From Gemmatimonadota bacterium (lineage in GTDB: Bacteria > Latescibacterota > UBA2968 > UBA8231), in the NCBI GenBank assembly GCA_002712305.1, contig PATE01000069.1:1-25905 (forward strand): 25,905 nt of DNA, written 5' to 3'. Below, in pieces: positions 2,726 to 24,565 of the stretch (position 1 is its first letter; each line of letters starts with the position of its first letter). The translations under genes were made by a program, and so were the position numbers. Under the pieces are notes generated by a model. It made no database searches. It worked only from the letters and a program-made list of their open reading frames with translations, and had not been told where the DNA came from.

Positions 2726-3472
2726 TTGGCCACCGAATACCCTGAACGCCACGAATTGCTCGAAGAGGTTCGTGCGTTACGCCGCGAACTGGCCGACTCG
2801 CATCCTCCATCTGCGACCGATGGAAGAGTGCGTTATCAGTCGGTGGTGGACAATGTCATCGACGGCATCATTACCATCGATGAGGGCGGCAAAATCGAGT
2901 CCTTCAATCCGCTACCGCACGAATCTTCGGCTACGACAGCAGTGGATTTTCGCGAAGACCTGTTCTATCGCATCAACACCTTCCCAATCCATCTGCCGCC
3001 CTTGCGCGAACGACGCGACGATATCGCCCTTCTCGCAGATCACTACCTACAGGTCTATGCCAAGAAGAATGGGATGGACGTGGCTGAGATCTCGCCCGAG
3101 GCGATGGATCTATTGATGGGATACGAGTGGCGAGGCAATGTGAGGGAACTACATAATGTGATCGAACGTGCCCTGGTATTGGCCACCGACAACGTGGTAC
3201 AACCTGGAGATCTGCCACCGAGAGTGAAGACGTCGGAAGGAACCCACTCGAGTGACCATCCGGAATTCTACCTTGATCTGCCCTTCAAGGATGCCAAGGA
3301 GCATCTGATTGAGGACTTCGAAAAGCGTTACATCGTAGAGGTCCTGAAGACCTTTGGTGGCAACATCTCACGTTCAACCGACCACAGTGGGATCGATCGG
3401 CGGTCGCTGCACCGATTGCTGTCCAAGTATCACATCGATGCCCATCAGGTGGCTTCTGACGAAAGCGAGTAG
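2726..3472 (+). pseudogene. Sigma54-dependent activator remnant: PAS start joined to end of AAA+ domain, Fis-type HTH
   Basis: The open frame of 248 aa starts at TTG 2726 with GAGGT just upstream. Residues about 36-61 are the start of a PAS domain (VVDNVIDGIITIDEGGKIESFNP). The protein then jumps to FREDLFYRINTFPIHLPPLRERRDDI, the second half of an NtrC-type AAA+ domain, followed by WRGNVRELHN and a Fis-like HTH (GNISRSTDHSGIDRRSLHRLL). Walker A, the GAFTGA loop that contacts sigma54 and Walker B are all absent. The lost PAS stretch ARIFGYDSSGF can still be read in another frame at 2917-2949. So there was a one-base loss near 2910 plus a deletion of several hundred bases, which by chance left the frame open. 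The product could bind DNA but not activate sigma54 promoters. Confidence 0.8.
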
Positions 3473-8070: not shown

Positions 8071-9335
8071 CAGAACAAGCGCACACCGACGAGGGCTTCG
8101 AGACTGGCCAGCGTCTTTTCGTAGTCGATATGATGATGATGCATTTGGATCTCGTATTGCTGAACCGCGACCTGGCTGTCGAGGAGGGTACCGAAGTCGA
8201 CGTGGTCGACCCGATATCCGGCGATGGCGGCGGTCAGGGCCTGCTCGGCTTGCGGAAGGATCGCCTGGCGCAGCAACTCCATCTGGTCCCGGTGGAGCCG
8301 GGCCTTCACCAGCAGTTCCTGTAGGCCCAGTTCGATCTGCAGACGCAACGCCTCGACCTCGGCCGACGCAGCCCGCTGTCGCTGTTGCGCCTCGGCGGCC
8401 TGCTCGTGCTCCCGTTCGGCGCGCCACAGAGGCAAACGCACGGCGACCCCGGCGGAGAGGAAGTCTCGACCGGCGACGGCATCCTCTTCGAAACTGCGCT
8501 GCCGATACGCCACGCTGAAATCAAAGTCGGGTCTGGCCGCCAGTTTTGCCAGGTGTTCTGCCGCTTTCCAGTGCTCGCGCTCCCATCGCAGTTCTGCCAG
8601 GGCCGGGCGGGAGGCGATGGCCATCTGCGTCAAGTCGGCCAAACCGTAGTCGAGATGTGTCGCCGGCGTCATGCTTGCGCTGGCGATCGGCGTTCCGATC
8701 GCGCGAGATCTCAGAGCATTGAGGCGGGCCTCCGCCACATCCCTCCTGGCGTGAAGCGACAGGAGTCGGTCACCGAGGCTCGACAGTAAGAGCTGTGCCT
8801 TGAGAATGTCTTGCTGCCGTCCTGTGCCCACGGCGTATTTCGTCTGCGCCATGCGCACGTAGTCACGAATCAGGTCCTGGTTTCGTGCGGTGATGGCCAA
8901 GGCCTGATCGACGAAGACGAGTTCGAGATACGCTTGCTTCACCGCCTCGACGAGGCGAGCCGCCTCGTCTTCGGTCCGAGCCTCGGCGATCTGTGTTCGT
9001 GTAGACGCCAGTTGGCGCTCGGCTTCACGGCGACCGGGCCAGGGCAGGCTCTGCGAAAGACCCAACTGTCGACCGCTCATGGGAGAACTGTCCGTGTCCC
9101 ACTTACCGAGCGGTACATTGAGCAGATCGAAGCGGAGATGTGGATCGGGCAGTGCTGCCGCCGGTCGTTCAGCGTGCCTCTGCGCGGTCGCCAATGCGGA
9201 CAGGGCCTCAAGCCGCGGATGCCGTGACAGGGCCTCGGCGATAAGCACCTCAAGTTGCGCGGTCTGCGCTGCAGCACTCTGCAGCAGAAGGCCAAGTACC
9301 AGGATCAGCCGGCACGGGAGTGGAGTCGTTCGCAT
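8070..9335 (-). CDS. cusC: TolC-family outer-membrane channel of the Cus system
   Basis: 421 aa from ATG 9335, with GAGGT about 8 bases upstream. The signal peptide is LILVLGLLLQSAAAQ. The body has the long heptad-rich helices and two-fold repeat of outer-membrane efflux proteins: PLPDPHL-type N-terminal part (here AALPDPHLRFDLLN), LGLSQSLPWPGRRE, YAVGTGRQQDILKAQ, and in the second half AGVAVRLPLWRAERE, YRVDHVDFGTLLDSQ. No lipobox is seen, unlike E. coli CusC. A run of four His (QMHHHH) lies near the C-terminus and could bind metal. It is the first of the three pump genes and its stop overlaps the start chosen for cusB. The 227-base gap upstream separates it from the Cys-rich gene. Confidence 0.88.
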   Translation of the reverse strand: MRTTPLPCRLILVLGLLLQSAAAQTAQLEVLIAEALSRHPRLEALSALATAQRHAERPAAALPDPHLRFDLLNVPLGKWDTDSSPMSGRQLGLSQSLPWPGRREAERQLASTRTQIAEARTEDEAARLVEAVKQAYLELVFVDQALAITARNQDLIRDYVRMAQTKYAVGTGRQQDILKAQLLLSSLGDRLLSLHARRDVAEARLNALRSRAIGTPIASASMTPATHLDYGLADLTQMAIASRPALAELRWEREHWKAAEHLAKLAARPDFDFSVAYRQRSFEEDAVAGRDFLSAGVAVRLPLWRAEREHEQAAEAQQRQRAASAEVEALRLQIELGLQELLVKARLHRDQMELLRQAILPQAEQALTAAIAGYRVDHVDFGTLLDSQVAVQQYEIQMHHHHIDYEKTLASLEALVGVRLF

Positions 9336-9352
9336 CTGTTTCTACCTCGCAC

Positions 9353-9366
9353 TGCTGAGTTCAGCA
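9353..9366 (-). promoter_or_regulatory. Small inverted repeat upstream of cusC
   Basis: TGCTGA and TCAGCA, separated by GT, form a perfect 6-bp inverted repeat 18-31 bases before the cusC ATG. The position would suit an operator or leader hairpin. No CueR- or CusR-like consensus is recognised, and a repeat this short can arise by chance. The rest of the 227-base gap (9336-9562) holds nothing else I can support. Confidence 0.25.
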
Positions 9367-9562
9367 ACGTGACTCAGATTCAGCCTTCCGTCGTGCAGAG
9401 TTCGGGCTCTACAGGCGAAACTGAAGAATCTGAGACAGGTGATCGGCTTGCATCGGGGTCAGCCACGACGCGACCAGCCGCCCGGTCGGTATGGACCGGA
9501 GAACGGCCGTCGGCACAGACACGGGAAACCCGGGACTGGCCCAACAGGATCAGAGGGGTGAA

Positions 9563-9928
9563 TCAGATGAGAAGTGAGGCGTGGAGCAGAAAGAGCGGTG
9601 GGGCGTGGGCGAAACGAACCGCCACGTCAGCGTTGCCCGTCTTGTAGGCGTCGGTGACAGGACTTGCGGTGGCGATCTGCGTCGTCCACAACTGCAACGA
9701 TTCGACGGACCCTTCCGCCGGTGGCGTGATCGCCTCGACGGGATCTGTTGTCGTCCACTCACCGGAACAGCTCGGACCACAGCAACAGGCCGGCAGGATC
9801 TGAGAGCCTTCCATCGGCGTCGACCCGGCACATGCACCTGCGGGACAGGGCAGCGCGCCGAACACGACCAACTGAACCAGCAGGAGCAGGCTCGCAGTCG
9901 AGGACAGGATGGGATGGCGGTGTTTCAT
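9563..9928 (-). CDS. Small exported Cys-rich protein, likely Cus accessory
   Basis: 121 aa from ATG 9928, with a CGGAG site upstream. Residues about 7-26 form a hydrophobic signal segment (ILSSTASLLLLVQLVVFG). Six cysteines follow: C28 and C33 in CPAGAC, and C48-C50 with C54 in ACCCGPSC. These are plausible soft-metal thiol ligands in the periplasm. The acidic/polar middle leads to a C-terminal APPLFLLHASLLI. Similar short Cys-rich exported proteins are often found beside cusCBA or czc genes, but their role is not established, so copper binding is inference. It lies on the same strand just upstream of cusC and just after the methyltransferase gene (30 bases apart), so it may be the first gene of the efflux operon. 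Confidence 0.7.
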   Translation of the reverse strand: MKHRHPILSSTASLLLLVQLVVFGALPCPAGACAGSTPMEGSQILPACCCGPSCSGEWTTTDPVEAITPPAEGSVESLQLWTTQIATASPVTDAYKTGNADVAVRFAHAPPLFLLHASLLI

Positions 9929-9958
9929 CGGGACTCCGGTGTGGGTCTACCAGTCAAT

Positions 9959-10858
9959 CTACCCGGGCTTTTGCGAATCGGCAACAGAAGGCTTTTGCAG
10001 CGCGAGCCACATGGTGTCGTAGAGATTGTGCCTGAACACCATGTGAAAGAGTCGTGCCGTTGCGTAAATCACCTTGTGGACGACGGCCCCGATGCCACCG
10101 CTGACGTAGTATGGATCCAGCGCCATATCCACGATCTCCAGCGACTGCGACTTCATCAGGTAGGCAGCCGTCTTCTGTGTAAAGTGAGACAGGTGGATTT
10201 CGGTCAGGGTTCCCTCCAATGAGATCTTTGGGAGGGTGTGCTTACCGTAGTTCTTGAACTTGCCAATGCCAGCCACCTTGAGCACGGCCCTGACGCCCTG
10301 CCGAACCTTCGAATGGATCTCGTTGGGAATGGCGATGATCAGAATCCCACCTGGCTTGAGCAGATCCCTGCAGCGAGCGATAAAGGCCGACGGGTCGGGC
10401 ACATGCTCCAGCACGTGGAACGCCGTGACCACGTCGAACTGTTTGTCGAACTGAATCTCCTCGATCTGTCCCTGGTGGATATCGAAACCGTATCTCGACT
10501 TGGCGATGGAGATGGCATTGTCCGAAACCTCCGTCCCCTCTACACGAAAGTGCCTCTGTGCATGGGAGAGGAACTGACCGATACCGGTACCCACATCGAG
10601 GAGATCTCCCGCTTGTCGGTATTTCAGGACGCGCTTCAGTCGCCGCCGCCAGAGGGTATCGCGACTCGCCTCCTGGGCCAGCCACGCATCGTATTGATCT
10701 TCTTCAGAGTAGAAACGCTGGATCTCAGCGAACGTGGGCCGCGGCGAGTCGAAGATGAAACCGCACTCGGTGCACTGACACAGATGATGCTCTGTATCGA
10801 TCGTAGCAACCGGATCTGTGCCGCAAAGATTGCAGCTGCTGATAACCTCTGACTCCAT
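9959..10858 (-). CDS. Class I SAM-dependent methyltransferase with N-terminal zinc ribbon
   Basis: 299 aa from ATG 10858, preceded by GAGGAG about 8 bases away; the open frame continues upstream but without family resemblance. The N-terminus has a CxxC pair (C9, C12) and a second pair in CQCTECG (C29, C32), typical of the zinc-ribbon that precedes methyltransferase domains in sugar-modifying enzymes. SAM motif I is LLDVGTGIGQFL (residues 87-98). FDVVTAFHVLEHVPDP and LLKPGGILIIAIPNE follow, as in the methyltransf_11/23 group. The substrate is unknown; surface-sugar or lipid modification is the usual role of close relatives. It sits between the cus and ars genes, but nothing in it suggests metal resistance. 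In particular the ArsM cysteine pattern is not evident. Confidence 0.85.
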   Translation of the reverse strand: MESEVISSCNLCGTDPVATIDTEHHLCQCTECGFIFDSPRPTFAEIQRFYSEEDQYDAWLAQEASRDTLWRRRLKRVLKYRQAGDLLDVGTGIGQFLSHAQRHFRVEGTEVSDNAISIAKSRYGFDIHQGQIEEIQFDKQFDVVTAFHVLEHVPDPSAFIARCRDLLKPGGILIIAIPNEIHSKVRQGVRAVLKVAGIGKFKNYGKHTLPKISLEGTLTEIHLSHFTQKTAAYLMKSQSLEIVDMALDPYYVSGGIGAVVHKVIYATARLFHMVFRHNLYDTMWLALQKPSVADSQKPG

Positions 10859-10974
10859 GAAGCACTCCTCGACGACCCAACAGATGGACAGATGATGGCA
10901 TCGCCCAGGACCCGGACACGAAGCGACGCGCCTATAAAGATGCGGCGCCGTGCGAGTCCGCGCACCCATGGAGA

Positions 10975-11088
10975 TCAGTTGGTCAACAGAACCGCCCCCA
11001 CCAGTCCCCACGCACCGGTGAACGCACCGAATGCCAACAGCGGTCTCCAGAGCCGGGATATGAAGTGTTGGGTCGATTTAGCGGCCAT
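10975..11088 (-). CDS. Possible 37-aa single-membrane-span peptide
   Basis: The ATG at 11088 opens a frame of 37 codons: MAAKSTQHF, basic SRLWRP, a hydrophobic span [19 protein letters not shown], then TN and stop. A basic N-terminus followed by one hydrophobic helix is typical of small membrane peptides. The ribosome site is poor (AAGG far upstream). The start lies just upstream, on the same strand, of the methyltransferase, whose ATG is 116 bases downstream of this stop. I recognise no family. It may be chance. Confidence 0.3.
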
Positions 11089-11129
11089 GCCAGGGCCTTA
11101 GCAACGGTCATGCCGACCTGGCCACCATC

Positions 11130-11163
11130 GAGGCGCCTCTTGAATACCGACCAGGACCTGGTC
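11130..11163 (+). promoter_or_regulatory. Two adjacent palindromes in the gap before the ACR3 gene
   Basis: GAGGCGCCTC (11130-11139) is a perfect 10-base palindrome. Ten bases later GACCAGG-A-CCTGGTC (11149-11163) is a perfect 7+1+7 inverted repeat. They lie in the divergent gap between the minus-strand small ORF and the plus-strand ars genes, where an ArsR or other operator would be expected. The sequence does not match the usual ArsR box (ATCAA-N6-TTGAT), so the assignment is positional only. Confidence 0.3.
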
Positions 11164-11165
11164 TG

Positions 11166-12231
11166 GTGGCCTGCCCTCTGTTTGCCTCAGTGAGGCGGCC
11201 CAACCCCACGAAGCAGGACACCCAAGTCCCGTTCGGCCGAAGAAATGAGCCTCAATTGGCGAAAATGGCCAGTTGCCGAACGGATACGCCACGGGGATGG
11301 TGGTGGTACGAATCCTGCTCCTGTCCTTGGCGGTGTCCCCCCCCCCCGCTGGCAAAAGTCCGCTACGAACAGTTGCTGCGGGTCTTTGCCAATACACGCG
11401 TCTTGGGCCTGTCGCTGGTGCAGAACTGGCTGATCGGACCTGTGCTGATGTTCGTGTTGGCACTGATCTTCCTGCGCGATCAACCCCAGTACATGGTGGG
11501 ACTGATCATGATCGGTCTGGCACGCTGCATCGCCATGGTCATCGTCTGGAATGAACTGGCCCGTGGGGATACCGAATACGCGGCGGCGCTGGTGGCTTTC
11601 AACTCGCTGTTTCAGATCCTGTTCTATTCGGTGTATGCGTGGATCTTCCTGACGATTCTGCCGCCCTTCTTCGGATTGCAGGGGATCATCGTCGACATCT
11701 CCATGGGGCAGATCGCAGAAAGTGTCCTCATCTATCTGGGGATTCCCTTCTTCGGCGGCATGCTGACACGCGCGGTCCTGCTGCGGTCGCATGGACGAGA
11801 GTGGTACGAGTCGGTCTTCATTCCACGAATCAGTCCTCTCACGCTCGTGGCACTGCTGTTCACCATCGTGGTCATGTTCAGCTTTCAAGGCGAACGGATC
11901 GTCGCTCTGCCTCTGGATGTACTGCGAATCGCTGTGCCACTGCTGATCTACTTCGTCGTCATGTTTCTCGTGTCCTTCTGGATGGGCAAGAAGGTGGGTG
12001 CCAACTACGGTCAGAGTGCGACCCTGTCGTTCACAGCGGCGAGCAATAACTTTGAACTCGCCGTCGCCGTCGCCGTATTCGGCATCGGTTCGGGTGCGGC
12101 TCTGGCCGCCGTGATTGGCCCCCTCGTCGAGGTGCCCGTCCTCATCGGTCTACGTCAACGTGGCGCTCTGGTTTCGTCAACGCTGGTTTGGACTCGACAT
12201 GCCCTCTGATATGGTCCCGGAGAGATCGTGA
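11166..12231 (+). CDS. ACR3-family arsenite efflux permease, damaged at both ends
   Basis: The central part is a clear ACR3 (Bile/As(III) permease superfamily) membrane protein: [47 protein letters not shown] (with the conserved thiolate Cys), [51 protein letters not shown]. Homology starts only at about 11343, directly after an 11-C tract. The first transmembrane helix (about 50 residues, normally ending LMMYPPLAK) is missing, and the preceding translation is not membrane-like. At 12147-12150 the frame breaks: the open frame ends at 12209 with a non-homologous tail, whereas another frame reads [21 protein letters not shown] and stops at 12231, overlapping arsR as TGATG. The true gene therefore ends at 12231. 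Its role is export of arsenite, paired with arsR and arsC. Confidence 0.85.
11337..11347 (+). repeat. 11-base C homopolymer at the truncated 5' end of ACR3
   Basis: Eleven consecutive C lie exactly where ACR3 similarity begins. Upstream bases do not encode the missing N-terminal helix in any frame I checked. The tract mirrors the G11 tract at 13070-13080 on the other side of the ars cassette. Confidence 0.9.
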
Positions 12232-12629
12232 TGGACAACGATGTAGAAATCTTCAAAGCCTGTGCCGACGAAACGCGCCTGCGAATCCTCATCCTTCTCG
12301 GTGAGGGTCAGTTGTGCGTCTGTGAGATCGTCGATGTCCTCGGCATGCCTCAGGGAAAAGTGTCACGACACCTTGCAGTGCTTCGCCGAGCCGGTCTCGT
12401 AGATGACGAGCGTCGCGGCACATGGATCCACTATTCCTTGAGTCGGTCCAAGGCACCTTTCATGAGGCGACTTCGCACGTATGTGAAGGGAGAGGCCCGT
12501 GACAGTGAGCAGGCTACCACAGATCTGCAGCGACTGCAGGAGTTGTGCGACTGTGGTGAGATCTGCCTCGATGCCCAGACTGTGGCCCCCCGTCGCGCCG
12601 AGCGAATCGCGGCGGTCGGTGCAGGATGA
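12231..12629 (+). CDS. arsR: ArsR-family arsenic-responsive repressor
   Basis: 132 aa. ATG 12231 is preferred to the in-frame GTG 12228 because GGAGAG lies 6-8 bases upstream and the ATG overlaps the frame-corrected ACR3 stop (TGATG). Winged-helix ArsR/SmtB fold: FKACADETRLRILILL, then the metal-sensing motif QLCVCEI with C29 and C31 (the ELCVC As(III) site type), the recognition helix MPQGKVSRHLAVLRRAGLV and the wing DERRGTWIHYSL. As(III) binding to the vicinal thiols would release it from the ars promoter. Further cysteines occur near the C-terminus (ELCDCGEICLD), possibly an added site. The stop overlaps arsC by ATGA, so the cassette is one transcript. Confidence 0.93.
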   Translation: MDNDVEIFKACADETRLRILILLGEGQLCVCEIVDVLGMPQGKVSRHLAVLRRAGLVDDERRGTWIHYSLSRSKAPFMRRLRTYVKGEARDSEQATTDLQRLQELCDCGEICLDAQTVAPRRAERIAAVGAG

Positions 12630-13060
12630 ATCCACTACGCGTCCTGTTCCTTTGCACCGGAAACTCCTGTCGCAGTCAGATGGCCGAGGGTTGGGCACAC
12701 CACTTGAAGCCGGGCGTCGTGGAGGCCTACTCGGCGGGCATTGAAACCCACGGTCTCAACCCGCATGCCGTATCGGTGATGGCAGAGCAGGGCGTCGACA
12801 TTTCGGGCCAGGAGTCTCAGCATGTGGACGAGTTGGCCCATGTCGATATAGACGTGGTCGTCACCGTCTGTGATCGGGCCGCCGAGAGTTGCCCGGTCTT
12901 TCCAGGCACGACACGTGTCGTCCATCGGCCCTTCGACGATCCGCCGCGATTGGCGGCGACGGCCAGCAGCGAGGCCGAAGGCCTGGAACACTACCGCCGT
13001 GTACGTGATGAAATCAGAACCTTCGTCGATTCGCTTCCCCAGGCCGTCTCCGGGGGCTGA
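12626..13060 (+). CDS. arsC: Thioredoxin-dependent arsenate reductase (low-MW phosphatase fold)
   Basis: 144 aa. It reduces cytoplasmic arsenate to arsenite for export by ACR3. The P-loop CTGNSCRSQ carries C10 and R16. VCDRAAESCP supplies C82 and C89, which match exactly the C10/C82/C89 relay of S. aureus ArsC, so thioredoxin coupling is expected. RPFDDPPR provides the catalytic Asp region. The length is typical of the family. ATG 12626 overlaps the arsR stop (ATGA). The G11 homopolymer begins 9 bases after the stop codon. Confidence 0.95.
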   Translation: MNPLRVLFLCTGNSCRSQMAEGWAHHLKPGVVEAYSAGIETHGLNPHAVSVMAEQGVDISGQESQHVDELAHVDIDVVVTVCDRAAESCPVFPGTTRVVHRPFDDPPRLAATASSEAEGLEHYRRVRDEIRTFVDSLPQAVSGG

Positions 13061-13069
13061 TCTCTAGTC

Positions 13070-13080
13070 GGGGGGGGGGG
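13070..13080 (+). repeat. 11-base G homopolymer just after arsC
   Basis: Eleven consecutive G form the mirror of the C11 tract at 11337-11347. The next gene on the right (UroD-like) lacks its 5' part and its open frame begins at the last G of this tract. Confidence 0.9.
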
Positions 13081-14096
13081 TGCCATGCCGTGCGCGGCGG
13101 CTACACACGGTCTCGACCCAGCCAGGACGTCGTGCTTCGGGGGTTCGGCCTCGACAATCACCCGACTACCCCTATCGCATCGAGGTCGAGGGGCTGGCTG
13201 TCGAAGCAGATGTCGGTCCCGAGCAAGTGCACACGGTCGTGCACGCGCCATCTGGGGATGTGACAACCCATCTGGAACTGTCGGCTCAAATGATAGCGGA
13301 AGGGATATCGCTTCCCTTCGTACGACGATATCCGATCGAGTCGGTCGCCGATCTTCCGATTGTGGCAGAGGTCTTCGAACACTGCCGGGTCATTCCGACA
13401 CCGCAGGCCTACACACAATTTCACCAGCGGATCGGCGAAAGCGGTGTCGCCGTTGCCTCGGGCCCGATCGCGGCATCGCCCATGCATCTAGTCCTGCATG
13501 ATCTGATGGCGATGGATCAGTTCTTCTACCTCTACACCGATGAACTCGAGGCGTTACGAGCCTTTGCCGCTCGTCTTGAGCCGTTGTACGAGGCCTGCCT
13601 CGATGCCGTCGTCGAGAACGAGGCCGAAGTCGTGTTTTGGGCGGCCAACTACGATCGTGATCTCACGTGGCCACCCTTCCTTGAGCAGGAGATCGCCCCT
13701 TGGCTGCGGCGGGCGGCGGACCGCTTGCACGCTGCAAGAAAGCTGTTGCTCACCCATTGTGATGGCGAGAATGATCGCATCGGCCATGTCTTCGGCGACT
13801 GCGGCGTAGACGTCGTGGAATCGGTCTGCCCCTCACCGATGACGAGTCTCGATCAGCACGGGCTGCGCACGGCCTTCGGCCCCAACGTCACCATCTGGGG
13901 TGGTGTTCCATCGGTGGCTCTCCTTGAAGCCTCCATGTCAACGGTGGATTTCCACACGTATGTAGATGACATGTGCGAACAGATCGGCGATGGGCATCGA
14001 TGGATCCTCGGCGTCTCCGACAATGTGCCACCTGATGCCGACCTGTCGCGCCTCGAATACCTTGGCACGCGTTTCACCGAGGTGGCCAGCGGCTGA
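13080..14096 (+). CDS. UroD-like (uroporphyrinogen decarboxylase/corrinoid methyltransferase family) protein, 5'-truncated
   Basis: The open frame of 338 aa begins with GTG inside the G11 tract. Recognisable family sequence starts only around YRIEVEGLAVEADVG (about 13170). The normal N-terminus (about 70-100 residues, with the R.PVD-type motif) is missing, and the first ~30 codons (CRARRLHTVSTQ) look like non-coding sequence. The core is typical of the UroD/MtaA TIM barrel: GVAVASGPIAASPMHLVLHDLMAMDQFFYLY, AEVVFWAANYD, LLLTHCDGEN (metal-site-like His-Cys), GVDVVESVCPSPMTS, ILGVSDNVPPDADL near the end. Such proteins in environmental bacteria are usually demethylases or uncharacterised, not heme enzymes. 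It precedes an HprA-like dehydrogenase on the same strand. The break at the G tract may be an assembly fault. Confidence 0.75.
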   Translation: MPCRARRLHTVSTQPGRRASGVRPRQSPDYPYRIEVEGLAVEADVGPEQVHTVVHAPSGDVTTHLELSAQMIAEGISLPFVRRYPIESVADLPIVAEVFEHCRVIPTPQAYTQFHQRIGESGVAVASGPIAASPMHLVLHDLMAMDQFFYLYTDELEALRAFAARLEPLYEACLDAVVENEAEVVFWAANYDRDLTWPPFLEQEIAPWLRRAADRLHAARKLLLTHCDGENDRIGHVFGDCGVDVVESVCPSPMTSLDQHGLRTAFGPNVTIWGGVPSVALLEASMSTVDFHTYVDDMCEQIGDGHRWILGVSDNVPPDADLSRLEYLGTRFTEVASG

Positions 14097-14235: not shown

Positions 14236-15189
14236 ATGAAGATCGTCGTCCTCGACGGTTATGCATTGAACCCCGGCGATCTCAGTTGGGATGGCCTCGC
14301 CGACCTCGGCGACCTGACCGTACACGAACACTCCACCGCGGATCAGGTGATCGAACGCGCCGCGGGCGCCGAAGTATTGCTGACCAACAAGTGTCCTGTC
14401 GGCGCCGAGCAGATTGCACAGTTACCTGACCTGCGCTACATCGGTGTCCTGGCCACAGGCTTCAACATCGTCGATGTCGAGGCAGCGCGGTCCCGTGATA
14501 TCCCCGTCGTCAACGTCCCCACCTATGGCACTTCGTCCGTGGCGCAGATGGTGTTCGCTCACATCCTCCACCTCACACAGAATGTGGGTCACCATGCGAC
14601 GACGGTGAGTGAAGGGCGCTGGGCTGCGAATCGCGATTTCTGCTACTGGGATACGTCGCAGGTGGAGTTGGAGAATCTCGTCCTGGGTATCATCGGATTT
14701 GGTCGCATCGGTCGTCGTGTCAGCGAACTGGCGCTCGCCTTTGGTATGAGCGTCGTCACCGCGACCCGTGATGGGCGAGCCCCTGACGCGACCGGCATTC
14801 GCAACGTAGACCTGGACGAATTGTTTTCACTCAGCGACATCATCTCCCTGCACTGCCCGCTGACCCCGCAGACAGAGGGAATCGTCAGTGCCCAGCGCTT
14901 GTCGCTGATGAAGTCGACGGCTTTCCTCGTGAATACGAGTCGAGGTCCACTCATCGACGAAGGAGCCCTGCTGAGCGCGTTGAACGACGGGCGGATCGCG
15001 GGTGCAGGTCTCGATGTGCTGGCCATCGAACCACCCAAGGCGAATCATCCGCTGTATGGGGCGAAAAACTGCTTCATCACACCCCATATCGCATGGGCCA
15101 CCGGTGCGGCGCGAACGCGATTGCTCGACACGGTCGTCGACAATGTCCGCGCCTTCGCGGCAGGTACCCCACAGAACGTGGTAAACTGA
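14236..15189 (+). CDS. D-2-hydroxyacid dehydrogenase, hydroxypyruvate/glycerate type
   Basis: 317 aa from ATG 14236; the ribosome site is weak. An NAD(P)-dependent enzyme that interconverts 2-oxoacids and D-2-hydroxyacids, such as hydroxypyruvate and glycerate. The Rossmann motif is GIIGFGRIGRRV. The catalytic triad is visible as Arg in NTSRGPLIDE, Glu in AIEPPKANHP and His in ITPHIAWATG. The ATGFN and VPTYGTSSVAQ motifs near the active site resemble the HprA/GyaR branch more than SerA. No ACT domain follows. The 139-base gap before it carries only a short stem (GCCGG/CCGGC near 14163-14176) without a T-run. Neighbouring sugar-acid genes suggest a catabolic role; the substrate is not certain. 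Confidence 0.87.
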   Translation: MKIVVLDGYALNPGDLSWDGLADLGDLTVHEHSTADQVIERAAGAEVLLTNKCPVGAEQIAQLPDLRYIGVLATGFNIVDVEAARSRDIPVVNVPTYGTSSVAQMVFAHILHLTQNVGHHATTVSEGRWAANRDFCYWDTSQVELENLVLGIIGFGRIGRRVSELALAFGMSVVTATRDGRAPDATGIRNVDLDELFSLSDIISLHCPLTPQTEGIVSAQRLSLMKSTAFLVNTSRGPLIDEGALLSALNDGRIAGAGLDVLAIEPPKANHPLYGAKNCFITPHIAWATGAARTRLLDTVVDNVRAFAAGTPQNVVN

Positions 15190-15337
15190 TCTGATCGACG
15201 ATTTTCGGGCTATCGGGAAAACAGTGCCTCGACCTGTGACGCCACGGTCTGTTCGGCTCCTAGCAGATACCCCGCATGACGATGCCGCAGATCGCCCTTG
15301 ATGCATCTCTGGTCCCGAGCCTTCAGGTAGGTCTACG

Positions 15338-15810
15338 TCATCGATCGTCGGCGCCGCGATCGTCGAGATAGCTGGCCAACTCCGCCACTTCGGAACCACC
15401 CGTGAGTTCGAGGAAGCTCCCGCCTCCAGCAGCAGACGTACTACGTCGAGTTTGCCACGGGCCGCGGCGAAATCCAGTGGCCGGTGCTGATTGTGCCGGC
15501 GTGAATTGGACCAGTAACCCTCCTGCTGCAGCAGATCGGGATCCTGGTCGATCAACGTTCGGAGCGTGTTCAGATCTTGTTGCTGGATGGCCGCCTCCAC
15601 CGCGCTGACCGATGGCGCCTCGGCAGACTCCACGTGGGCCTTGAGTTTGGGCCAACTGGTGAAACCGTATTCGAGGGCAAGTTGATACTGGGAATCAGCA
15701 ACGGACGTGGCCGATCCGGTGGAAAGCAGTTCGGCTGCCTGCTTCTTCAGGTGGCGGAGATCCGGATTCTGCGGCAAAGAGCGGTTGGCGCGGGGGGCTT
15801 GGGTCGACAT
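15338..15810 (-). pseudogene. Ankyrin-repeat protein, truncated or frameshifted
   Basis: ATG 15810 follows a strong AGGAGGT. The N-terminus is the arrangement common before ankyrin repeats in these bacteria: DLRHLKKQAAELL, then YQLALEYGFTSWPKLKAHVES. One repeat follows: VEAAIQQQDLNTLRTLIDQDPDLL and RPLDFAAARGKLDVVRLLLEAGAS. After about 15425 the frame no longer looks like a repeat. A second frame reads GSEVAELASYLDDRGADD, the end of another ankyrin unit, and stops at 15338. The original frame stays open to 14827, but only as an antisense shadow of the hydroxyacid dehydrogenase. I read this as a gene that lost part of a repeat and shifted frame, or a sequencing fault. Ankyrin repeats mediate protein binding; the partner is unknown. 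Confidence 0.65.
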
Positions 15811-15967
15811 GGCGACCTCCTCTCATGGATCGCCCGATTGTCCGCATGTGCCGGGCCGAAAGAAGGATCGCTTGACGTGATGACTGCGACGATGGGCTTA
15901 GACCCTTTCCGCGGACCGGTGGCACTCGCTGATGCCGAGCACAAGGATATAGACAGCTCTCGCCGTG

Positions 15968-16060
15968 GATCAAGCGTCCCGATGATGGCAGGTGTCTCGG
16001 TTCTGCAAGCCCTTGATCGGCTTCGCTTCCACGGGTATCGTGAAACGCCATCACCTGCCA
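15968..16060 (+). promoter_or_regulatory. Possible structured leader before the SerA-like gene
   Basis: Within the 268-base divergent gap (15811-16078) two inverted repeats interleave. GATCAAG (15968-15974) pairs with CTTGATC (16012-16018), and TGGCAGGTG (15986-15994) pairs with CACCTGCCA (16052-16060). The order is that of a pseudoknot and it ends 18 bases before the start codon. No known riboswitch class is recognised, and pairings of 7 and 9 bp could be chance. Confidence 0.25.
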
Positions 16061-16078
16061 CCGGATTGAGGTCATTCG

Positions 16079-19288: not shown

Positions 19289-20560
19289 TCAGGTTCGCTG
19301 TTCCCGCATGGGCCCCTGCTGCAACCGTTCGTAGAGATCTGACCACTCCTTCGACCCATCATCGTCCCAGATTTCCAGCGTTGCGCCCGGCTCCTGGGCC
19401 GGATCGTTGCCACGCTGACGGAAATGTGGCCATACGTGATCACGCATGTTGGCGAAATGGACGACACGCCCGCCCGGCCAGACGACGGAGAGGATGTGAC
19501 GAGGATGAGGTAGCTCGTAGGGCGGCTCCATCTTGTATTTGACCAGGGCCTCTTCGTTCACCTCGACGCCGAGTCCGGGACCTTCAGGCACCTGTAAATA
19601 GCCGCCCCGAATCGTCAGGGGTTTGGTGAGCAAGTCGTCGGTGTAGTTGTTCATGCACGTGATCGTGGGCCACTGGGCGAAAGGCAACACAGCCCCCAGA
19701 TGTGCCGACAGGGCCGTCACCAGACCCACACCCACCATCTGCAACCAGAAGGGATGCTCGAAGGCACCCGACAATTGACCCTGCTGCAGGACCGTCGATA
19801 CGCCACCACCGATGACGAAGCCGTCGCACACGGCCTCTTTCATGGCCGTGGGGAAAGGCGGCGCACCGAAATGGATGGCGATTGGTTTCTGCACGTTGCG
19901 TCGAAGTTCACGCATCCCCTCCACATCGGATTGATTGATCGGTCCCTCGTAGATGGAAACGCGCTCGTAGTGGTCAAGACGCTGCATGACCGGTGTTGCC
20001 GTGCCCACGTTCATGAGCATGCCATTCCAGTCGAGATCGAGTCGATAGTGTTCGGGGGTGACGGCGCTGATCGCCTCAACCTGCTCATACACGTCAAACC
20101 AGGGTCGCGTCTTAAACTTGTGGAAGATGTACCCCGCCGCGACAGCTTCCTGTGCTTCGGAGGCCAGATCCTCGGGACTCATTTTCGTGTTCCACCAGGC
20201 GATGGGACACCAGTCGCGGACTTTAGGCAGATTGAGCAGATGGTAGACGGGCACGCCGAGCGCCTTCCCCACCACGTCGTAGATCGCCATCTCCAACCCG
20301 GCGCCGAAACTCGTATCGCCCAACAGCTCCGCCGGATTCTTTCCCTTCACACGTGCGAGTGCCTCGTCACTGACACGTCCCCACGTGTAGTGGGGCAAGG
20401 TTTCCCCGTAGCCAACGGTCCCGTCGTCGGTCGTAACACGGATGATCTCGACGATCTGCCATTGCCAAACGAGAAGGGCATTCCATTTTGCAGCGGTCTC
20501 GGTAAAGGGAACGCGCAGAGTAATGCGCTCAACGTCTTTGATGCGTAACGAGGCGGGCAT
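19289..20560 (-). CDS. Enolase-superfamily (mandelate racemase/muconate lactonizing) enzyme with altered metal site
   Basis: 423 aa from ATG 20560, with GGAG about 8 bases upstream. The N-terminal capping domain includes VGYGETLPHYTWGRV. The barrel shows KFKTR (the K-x-K base motif on strand 2), LDLDWNG (metal Asp) and YEGPI (metal Glu). At the third metal position, where D or E is usual, it has PIAIHFGAPPFP, a His. The region before the end (GGYLQVPEGPGLGVEVNEEAL) is typical of the family, and about 70 further residues follow (HPRHILSVVWPGG, HVWPHFRQRGN), longer than most members. Members abstract the alpha-proton of carboxylates, for example sugar-acid dehydratases. The changed ligand makes the exact reaction uncertain. 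Confidence 0.85.
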   Translation of the reverse strand: MPASLRIKDVERITLRVPFTETAAKWNALLVWQWQIVEIIRVTTDDGTVGYGETLPHYTWGRVSDEALARVKGKNPAELLGDTSFGAGLEMAIYDVVGKALGVPVYHLLNLPKVRDWCPIAWWNTKMSPEDLASEAQEAVAAGYIFHKFKTRPWFDVYEQVEAISAVTPEHYRLDLDWNGMLMNVGTATPVMQRLDHYERVSIYEGPINQSDVEGMRELRRNVQKPIAIHFGAPPFPTAMKEAVCDGFVIGGGVSTVLQQGQLSGAFEHPFWLQMVGVGLVTALSAHLGAVLPFAQWPTITCMNNYTDDLLTKPLTIRGGYLQVPEGPGLGVEVNEEALVKYKMEPPYELPHPRHILSVVWPGGRVVHFANMRDHVWPHFRQRGNDPAQEPGATLEIWDDDGSKEWSDLYERLQQGPMREQRT

Positions 20561-23113: not shown

Positions 23114-24565
23114 ATGACACGCCAGTCGGGTGGCCTCATCGGTGGTTTGCTCGCTTTCATCGTCGTATTGCTGCTGCCCACACCAGAGGGTAATGAGTCC
23201 CATGGCGCAGCGAGCGGCGGCGGTGACCGTATTGATGGCGATCTGGTGGATGACGGAGGCGGTCCCCATTGCGGCGACGGCATTTGTACCGACCGCACTA
23301 TTTCCCCTTCTTGGCATTCTCGATGCGAAAGCGACGGCCGCGAACTACGGGCACAACTATGTGCTCATGTTCCTGGCGGGCTTTTTCATCGCCCGCGCTT
23401 TCGAGGTGCATCAACTCCATCGACGCATCGCGTTGAGTCTGATCCACCGAATCGGTACGAGCCGACGGCGCATCGTCCTGTCCTTCATGCTCGCCACGTC
23501 ACTGCTGTCCATGTGGATCGCGAATGTGGCGGTCACCTTGTTGATGCTGCCCATCGGTATGGCCGTCGCTTCGCGTGACGATGGCAAGGGCGGAAGCTTT
23601 GGCGTGGCTCTCATGCTGGCCATCGCCTACAGCGCCAGCATCGGTGGCACCGGGTCGTTGGTGGGCACGCCGCCCAACATGGTTTTTGTCGGAATGGTGA
23701 AAACCATGTATCCCCAGGCGCCCGACGTGACCTTCATCGACTGGATGGAGATCGGCATCCCCTTCGTCATGTGCATGTTGCCCGTGACCTGGCTCTTCCT
23801 CACGCGCTCCTTTGGTGTCACAGGAAGCTTTTTCGGCAGTCGTGAGGTGATTACCTCCGAGCTGGAATTGCTCGGACCGATGCAGCCCGGCGAACGACGT
23901 GTGCTGGGTATCTTCCTTCTGACAGGCCTGGGCTGGATCTTTCGCGATGTCTGGGCAGCCTCGCTCGGTGTGGAGCACCTGGTTCACGATGCGACCGTCG
24001 CTGTCGCCGCGGCGCTGGCCCTCTTCGTTCTACCCTCCGGCAACAAGGGAGAACGACTTCTCGACTGGCAGCAGGCTCAGACCGTTCCCTGGGGTGTGGC
24101 CATGATCGTAGGCGGGGGTATGCGATCGCCAAAGGGTTTGCCACGACGGGCCTGGCCACATGGCTTGGAGATGCCTTGGCCCCCATCGCCGCTCTGCCGC
24201 TGCCGGTGATCGTTCTGCTCGTCGTTCTGTTCATGACCTTCATCACCGAGATCAACTCCAATACGGCAACAGCGAGCATCTTCTTGCCCGTGCTCGCGAC
24301 GATGGCCACCGCAGGACACACCCATCCCTTCCTGCTGATGATCCCCGCCACCTTCGCCTGCTCCTGTGCCTTCATGCTGCCCTCGGGAACGGGACCGAAC
24401 GCGGTCATTTTCGGCAGCGGGCAGGTGACGATTCCCCAGATGTCGCGAGCCGGGCTGCGAATGAACTTCATCTCCGTCGTGATGTTGTCTGTCATCATGG
24501 TCCTGTTCGCCATTCCCCTGCTCGACATCTCCGGTACACCACCGGCGTGGGCGACCCTACCATGA
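23114..24565 (+). pseudogene. DASS/SLC13-family dicarboxylate or anion transporter, two frameshifts
   Basis: ATG 23114 starts MTRQSGGLIGGLLAFIVVLLLPTPEG. The frame breaks at about 23192 (an extra base) and continues MSPMAQRAAAVTVLMAIWWMTEAVPIAATAF, the SLC13 signature, through SIGGTGSLVGTPPN and PWGVAMIVGGGM. It breaks again at 24122; adding one G restores GGGMAIAKGFATTGLATWL. The last part (FMTFITEINSNTATASIFLPV, SGTGPNAVIFGSG) carries the second SNTA sodium/substrate motif. The first is seen as IGGTGSLVGTPPN. About 483 codons and the typical two-repeat topology would be intact if both shifts are errors. The family imports di- and tricarboxylates or sulfate with Na+. The stop overlaps the MDR gene (ATGA). 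Confidence 0.8.

Follow-up and report, generated by a model that had tools for sequence, protein, structure and literature searches.

The closest described counterpart of the locus analysed here is the chromosomal ars operon (arsM, ACR3, arsR, arsC). The locus resembles such an operon in having co-directional genes for ACR3, ArsR and an LMW-type ArsC, and relatives have the same neighbourhood; it differs in that arsM and the start of ACR3 are absent and in that homopolymer tracts lie at both edges. In some bacteria, phase-variation tracts are long runs of G or C. Two further systems bear on the tracts and on the breaks beside them. Two-colour sequencing chemistry is known to produce false G calls and poly-G tails (PMC6637168); Illumina poly-G tails of this type, like mis-joined draft contigs, share with our locus the outward G runs and the bases missing at joins, whereas the tracts described here are internal, only 11 long and without a second case in the assembly, and the likeness is drawn from a chemistry that may not be the platform of this genome. 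Our literature search found no description of an artefact exactly like the one suspected here. Breakpoints at G tracts are also a feature of C. elegans dog-1 (FANCJ) mutants, with deletions upstream of G-rich DNA (Cheung 2002, as cited in PMC2673046); to the extent that this secondary account describes them, those deletions are unlike the losses in our locus, where each G run has the missing DNA on its 3' side and the organism is a bacterium.

We analysed the first 25,905 bases (the window) of a 36,856-base contig, C90, from a 4.77 Mb assembly of 146 contigs. Tracts were counted by pattern search of the whole assembly, and other statistics come from sampled stretches, many of which had been picked for holding a G9; run-length fits were restricted to unbiased stretches. 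Features are listed in Table 1. A preliminary description of the window, made from its letters alone, had reported 11-base homopolymers, C11 and G11, bracketing the ars genes, and we found their positions to be exact. These are the only G or C runs of at least 10 in the assembly, and they lie 1.7 kb apart. Runs of at least 9 comprise 13 of exactly 9 and the two of 11, and a geometric fit to shorter runs gives an expectation of ~7 runs of at least 10, against 2 observed; the number of long tracts is ordinary and unremarkable. The probability of two random tracts lying this near each other is ~7e-4. G runs of at least 11 are found in single-contig relatives too, and homopolymer-tipped contigs are present in relatives' assemblies.

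Table 1. Positions in the window of the ars genes, the tracts and their surroundings
Feature	Position	Strand	Remarks
Second broken join, no tract	2942..2945	.	Kinase N-terminus fused to sigma-54 regulator C-terminal part
SAM-dependent methyltransferase gene, not arsM	9962..10861	-	PF13489/PF08241
Left flank without coding signal	10862..11336	.	Single copy in assembly
C11 tract	11337..11347	.	Left limit of homology to G001
acr3 fragment	11346..12209	+	Lacks first 63 codons; 5-base loss at ~12150; TIGR00832
arsR, intact	12231..12629	+	PF01022; NF033788
arsC, LMW-phosphatase type, open frame intact	12626..13060	+	PF01451
G11 tract	13070..13080	.	10 bases past arsC stop codon; right limit of homology to G001
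UroD-like gene fragment	13081..14096	+	PF01208; lacks ~56 codons; 1-base loss at ~13161
2-hydroxyacid dehydrogenase gene, intact	14236..15189	+	PF02826/PF00389

The gene downstream of acr3 encodes an ArsR/SmtB metalloregulator, scoring 96.5 bits against NF033788 (cut-off 55). The ArsC translation has an LMWPc domain and a CX5R-like motif, CTGNSCR; its score against TIGR02691 (thioredoxin-type arsenate reductase), 146.5 bits, is below the cut-off of 174.3. ACR3 scored 365.4 bits against TIGR00832 (cut-off 282.8), but the match covers only profile positions 59-323 of 327; positions 1-58 are missing, and TM1 and most of TM2 are gone. In 12 of 12 relatives, these being the ones with loci readable across the cut point, TM1 and TM2 (ending ..GLILMMY) stand before PPLAKV/PPLAKI, and the window sequence before the cut point is unrelated to them. 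Hence, the abrupt truncation of ACR3 at C11 asserted in the preliminary description is borne out by the relatives; its statement that the first helix is lost was correct for TM1 but understated the damage, since the cut runs through TM2. Near the 3' end of acr3, a 5-base loss that alters the C-terminus has removed one copy of an apparent tandem GGTCT pair. Neither this loss nor the 1-base loss in the UroD-like gene figures in the preliminary description. The fragment as assembled does not contain a complete transmembrane set and could not form a working pump; in living cells, the predicted ACR3 is probably a working pump. A scan of the genome contigs for ACR3 yielded more distant relatives only.

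We compared the window with related genomes. A genome of the same genus (G001) has a contig, C66, that is collinear with the whole of C90 in one orientation, at a DNA identity of roughly 67-84% per block, and ACR3-arsR-arsC occupy the matching place and orientation with amino-acid identity of 77-87%. The order arsM-ACR3-arsR-dehydrogenase is retained in two genomes of a sister genus (G005 and G009), and G009 also has a sigma factor gene and an outer-membrane efflux gene upstream. The 2-hydroxyacid dehydrogenase gene is the syntenic anchor to the right of the ars genes in all three genomes. In G005, arsC is reduced to its last 34 residues between arsR and the dehydrogenase gene (L214 2040-2605), which is an independent loss in the same operon. 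The GC content and tetranucleotide profile of the ars piece, a comparison that the preliminary description had proposed as a check, are ordinary for the genome and reveal nothing foreign. Since order, neighbours, orientation and composition are all native, the ars piece is neither inserted nor foreign. We conclude that the 1.7 kb piece is, judged by its sequence and synteny, an ars operon (ACR3-arsR-arsC) that belongs to this genome and still occupies its ancestral position.

Homology to G001 is interrupted at both edges of this piece, picking up again at 11343, a position within C11, and at 13081, directly after the last base of G11. At neither matching site does G001 have a G or C run of at least 8. 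To the left, the sigma factor gene, arsM and the ACR3 N-terminus of the relatives are absent; the place of the first two is occupied by the methyltransferase gene, which is UbiG/BioC-like only, under curated cut-offs. The ~480 bases between this gene and the tract score negative or near zero in all six frames; a search of G001 with region 9300-11336 returned no DNA match, and a search of the left flank against its own genome returned a single copy. To the right, the G001 homologue of the UroD-like gene is 393 aa long and the window match begins at residue 57, confirming the earlier remark that the N-terminal portion is missing; the 1-base loss in this gene is 80 bases from G11. In G001, 11 kb separates arsC from the UroD-like gene. 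In the sister genus nothing comparable lies between the ars genes and the dehydrogenase gene, which is why we leave this block out of the losses; hence, at the right edge only the UroD start need count as missing. Searching the genome's own assembly by DNA for the ACR3 start, arsM and the 11 kb of G001 gave short partial matches only, although a negative result counts for little at an identity of ~75%.

The best single reading of the junctions, which we hold to be somewhat likelier right than wrong, is that pieces were mis-joined in a strain-mixed draft assembly, and the C11/G11 bracket is probably not a biological feature. The runs would be low-support tips of an assembly piece, with reads that run into G in the outward direction on either strand. 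The left tract probably began from a native run, since the ACR3 cut sits in Tyr-Pro-Pro codons that would give about six C. Overlaps or pairing information would then have put the piece where it belongs, between its true neighbours, and the gaps would have been closed with the absent bases left out. As expected of a mis-join, homology breaks at the junctions while order and orientation agree with G001 and the sister genus. Both breaks fall at the only two long tracts in the assembly, which are mirrored, and small indels lie near the joins (80 bases away in UroD; ~45 bases ahead of the kinase join). Long decay has left no sign, since the broken genes are still highly identical to G001 (ACR3 87%, transporter 89-90%). 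The assembly looks like a consensus of several strains: single N's are scattered through it, and contigs C90 and C135 share a 530-base overlap at their ends (L175 16327-16856, L176 16438-16940), in which SNPs and a 27-base indel flanked by short direct repeats mark strain variation that stayed unmerged. The homopolymer-tipped contigs of relatives and the documented G artefacts of two-colour chemistry also favour mis-joining.

Several observations weigh against mis-joined pieces. The preliminary description had invoked poly-G read artefacts, with G tails on both 3' ends of one piece; an artefact is still the best single reading and such tails account for the outward-facing G, but they do not explain two gap-free joins, for which the flanking pieces would need C tails. 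Elsewhere in the assembly, two contigs abutting with seven shared bases stayed unjoined, so the assembler did not force such joins everywhere. Without another G or C run of at least 10 in the assembly, such an artefact would have arisen here and nowhere else in it. Breaks free of tracts are also present.

The principal alternative, which we consider a serious possibility though not the one we favour, is that two real, recent deletions occurred in a degrading stretch of chromosome and that slippage at the scars lengthened their C and G runs. The left deletion would have taken the sigma factor gene, arsM and the ACR3 start, and the right one the UroD start. Both ACR3 and the UroD-like gene have a further lesion independent of the truncation, and that in ACR3 resembles the loss of one tandem repeat copy; the G005 arsC remnant shows that a sister-genus genome has independently lost most of that gene, and the long G runs of single-contig relatives also fit real deletions. 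Further genes on the contig are broken. In G001, 4.5 kb lies between the kinase and sigma-54 regulator parts that are fused in the window, and the kinase has a 1-base indel just ahead of this join. A beta-helix gene has small indels at ~18000, and a transporter gene (23114-24562) has two frameshifts (~23190 and ~24120), which suggests consensus errors or very recent breakage. In a control region of the same genome, one gene is likewise cut at a collinearity break without a tract. Against real deletions, a mirrored tract pair at both edges would be a coincidence, as the probability for closeness alone indicates; the fragments give no indication of relaxed selection; and at the left junction unrelated sequence replaces 2-3 genes, and no mobile element was seen there. 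We also considered a genome-wide error rate as the sole cause, and rejected it; a strict frame-switch model detected 3 switches across the 26 kb window, compared with 12 across 373 kb from its assembly and none across 209 kb from G001, a mild local excess only.

We think it improbable that the junctions are real and that the G runs served as deletion starting points, with the DNA 3' of each run lost and the run itself kept. Little credence, and less than for that proposal, can be given to the literal form of the preliminary description, in which a contig from another organism or locus was stitched in. In its favour are the mirrored tracts and the genes that begin abruptly at either edge, but G001 has the same genes in the same setting, with order, orientation and neighbours unchanged, G005 and G009 share part of this arrangement, and the composition is that of the genome; we conclude that synteny largely refutes it. 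The preliminary description would have taken matching gene order and junctions in a relative as evidence against it; the relatives share the order and not the junctions. A real insertion, offered in the same description as less likely, is excluded, and a mobile cassette with it, by the presence of the ars genes at the same site and orientation in G001 and of ACR3-arsR beside the corresponding dehydrogenase gene in G005 and G009. Least credible of all, and rejected here, is the suggestion that the tracts are slippage-prone on/off switches of ACR3 and the UroD-like gene, as known from long G/C runs in some bacteria: the missing ACR3 helices are encoded in no upstream frame and no coding signal precedes C11, G11 is untranslated, lying past the arsC stop codon with no complete UroD start to toggle, G001 lacks comparable runs, and no tract length restores a complete frame in any register.

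Taken literally, the assembly would describe an arsenic operon without a working pump in a new gene neighbourhood; comparison with relatives describes instead a native operon with missing edges. Hence, the contig alone is no basis for proposing loss of arsenic resistance or a mobile ars cassette. The case is a caution on reading draft assemblies, in that a contig needs reads before such inferences are made.

Other observations concern the window and its surroundings. The chimeric gene at the tract-free join (2732-3472) consists of a first ~75 codons that are PAS-containing and kinase-like, and, fused to these, the last 175 residues of a sigma-54-type response regulator. In the window, ~890 bases (15190-16078) separate two dehydrogenase genes whose spacing in G001 is only ~24 bases; this interval holds a portion of a minus-strand ORF, with ankyrin-like matches, that continues antisense into the dehydrogenase gene and is probably a gene fragment. 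Just past the right end of the window, 22 single N's fall within 1.6 kb (L175 5906-7503) over an ABC-transporter gene, and are probably collapsed variants. Contig C63 of the same assembly (L151 1-13180) has coding signal over only ~32%, and may on that account be a contaminant or a degraded stretch. Finally, a mandelate-racemase/enolase-like gene (19292-20560) encodes a protein 96.7% identical to that of G001, against 70-90% for its neighbours, which is, at the level of sequence, unusually strong conservation.
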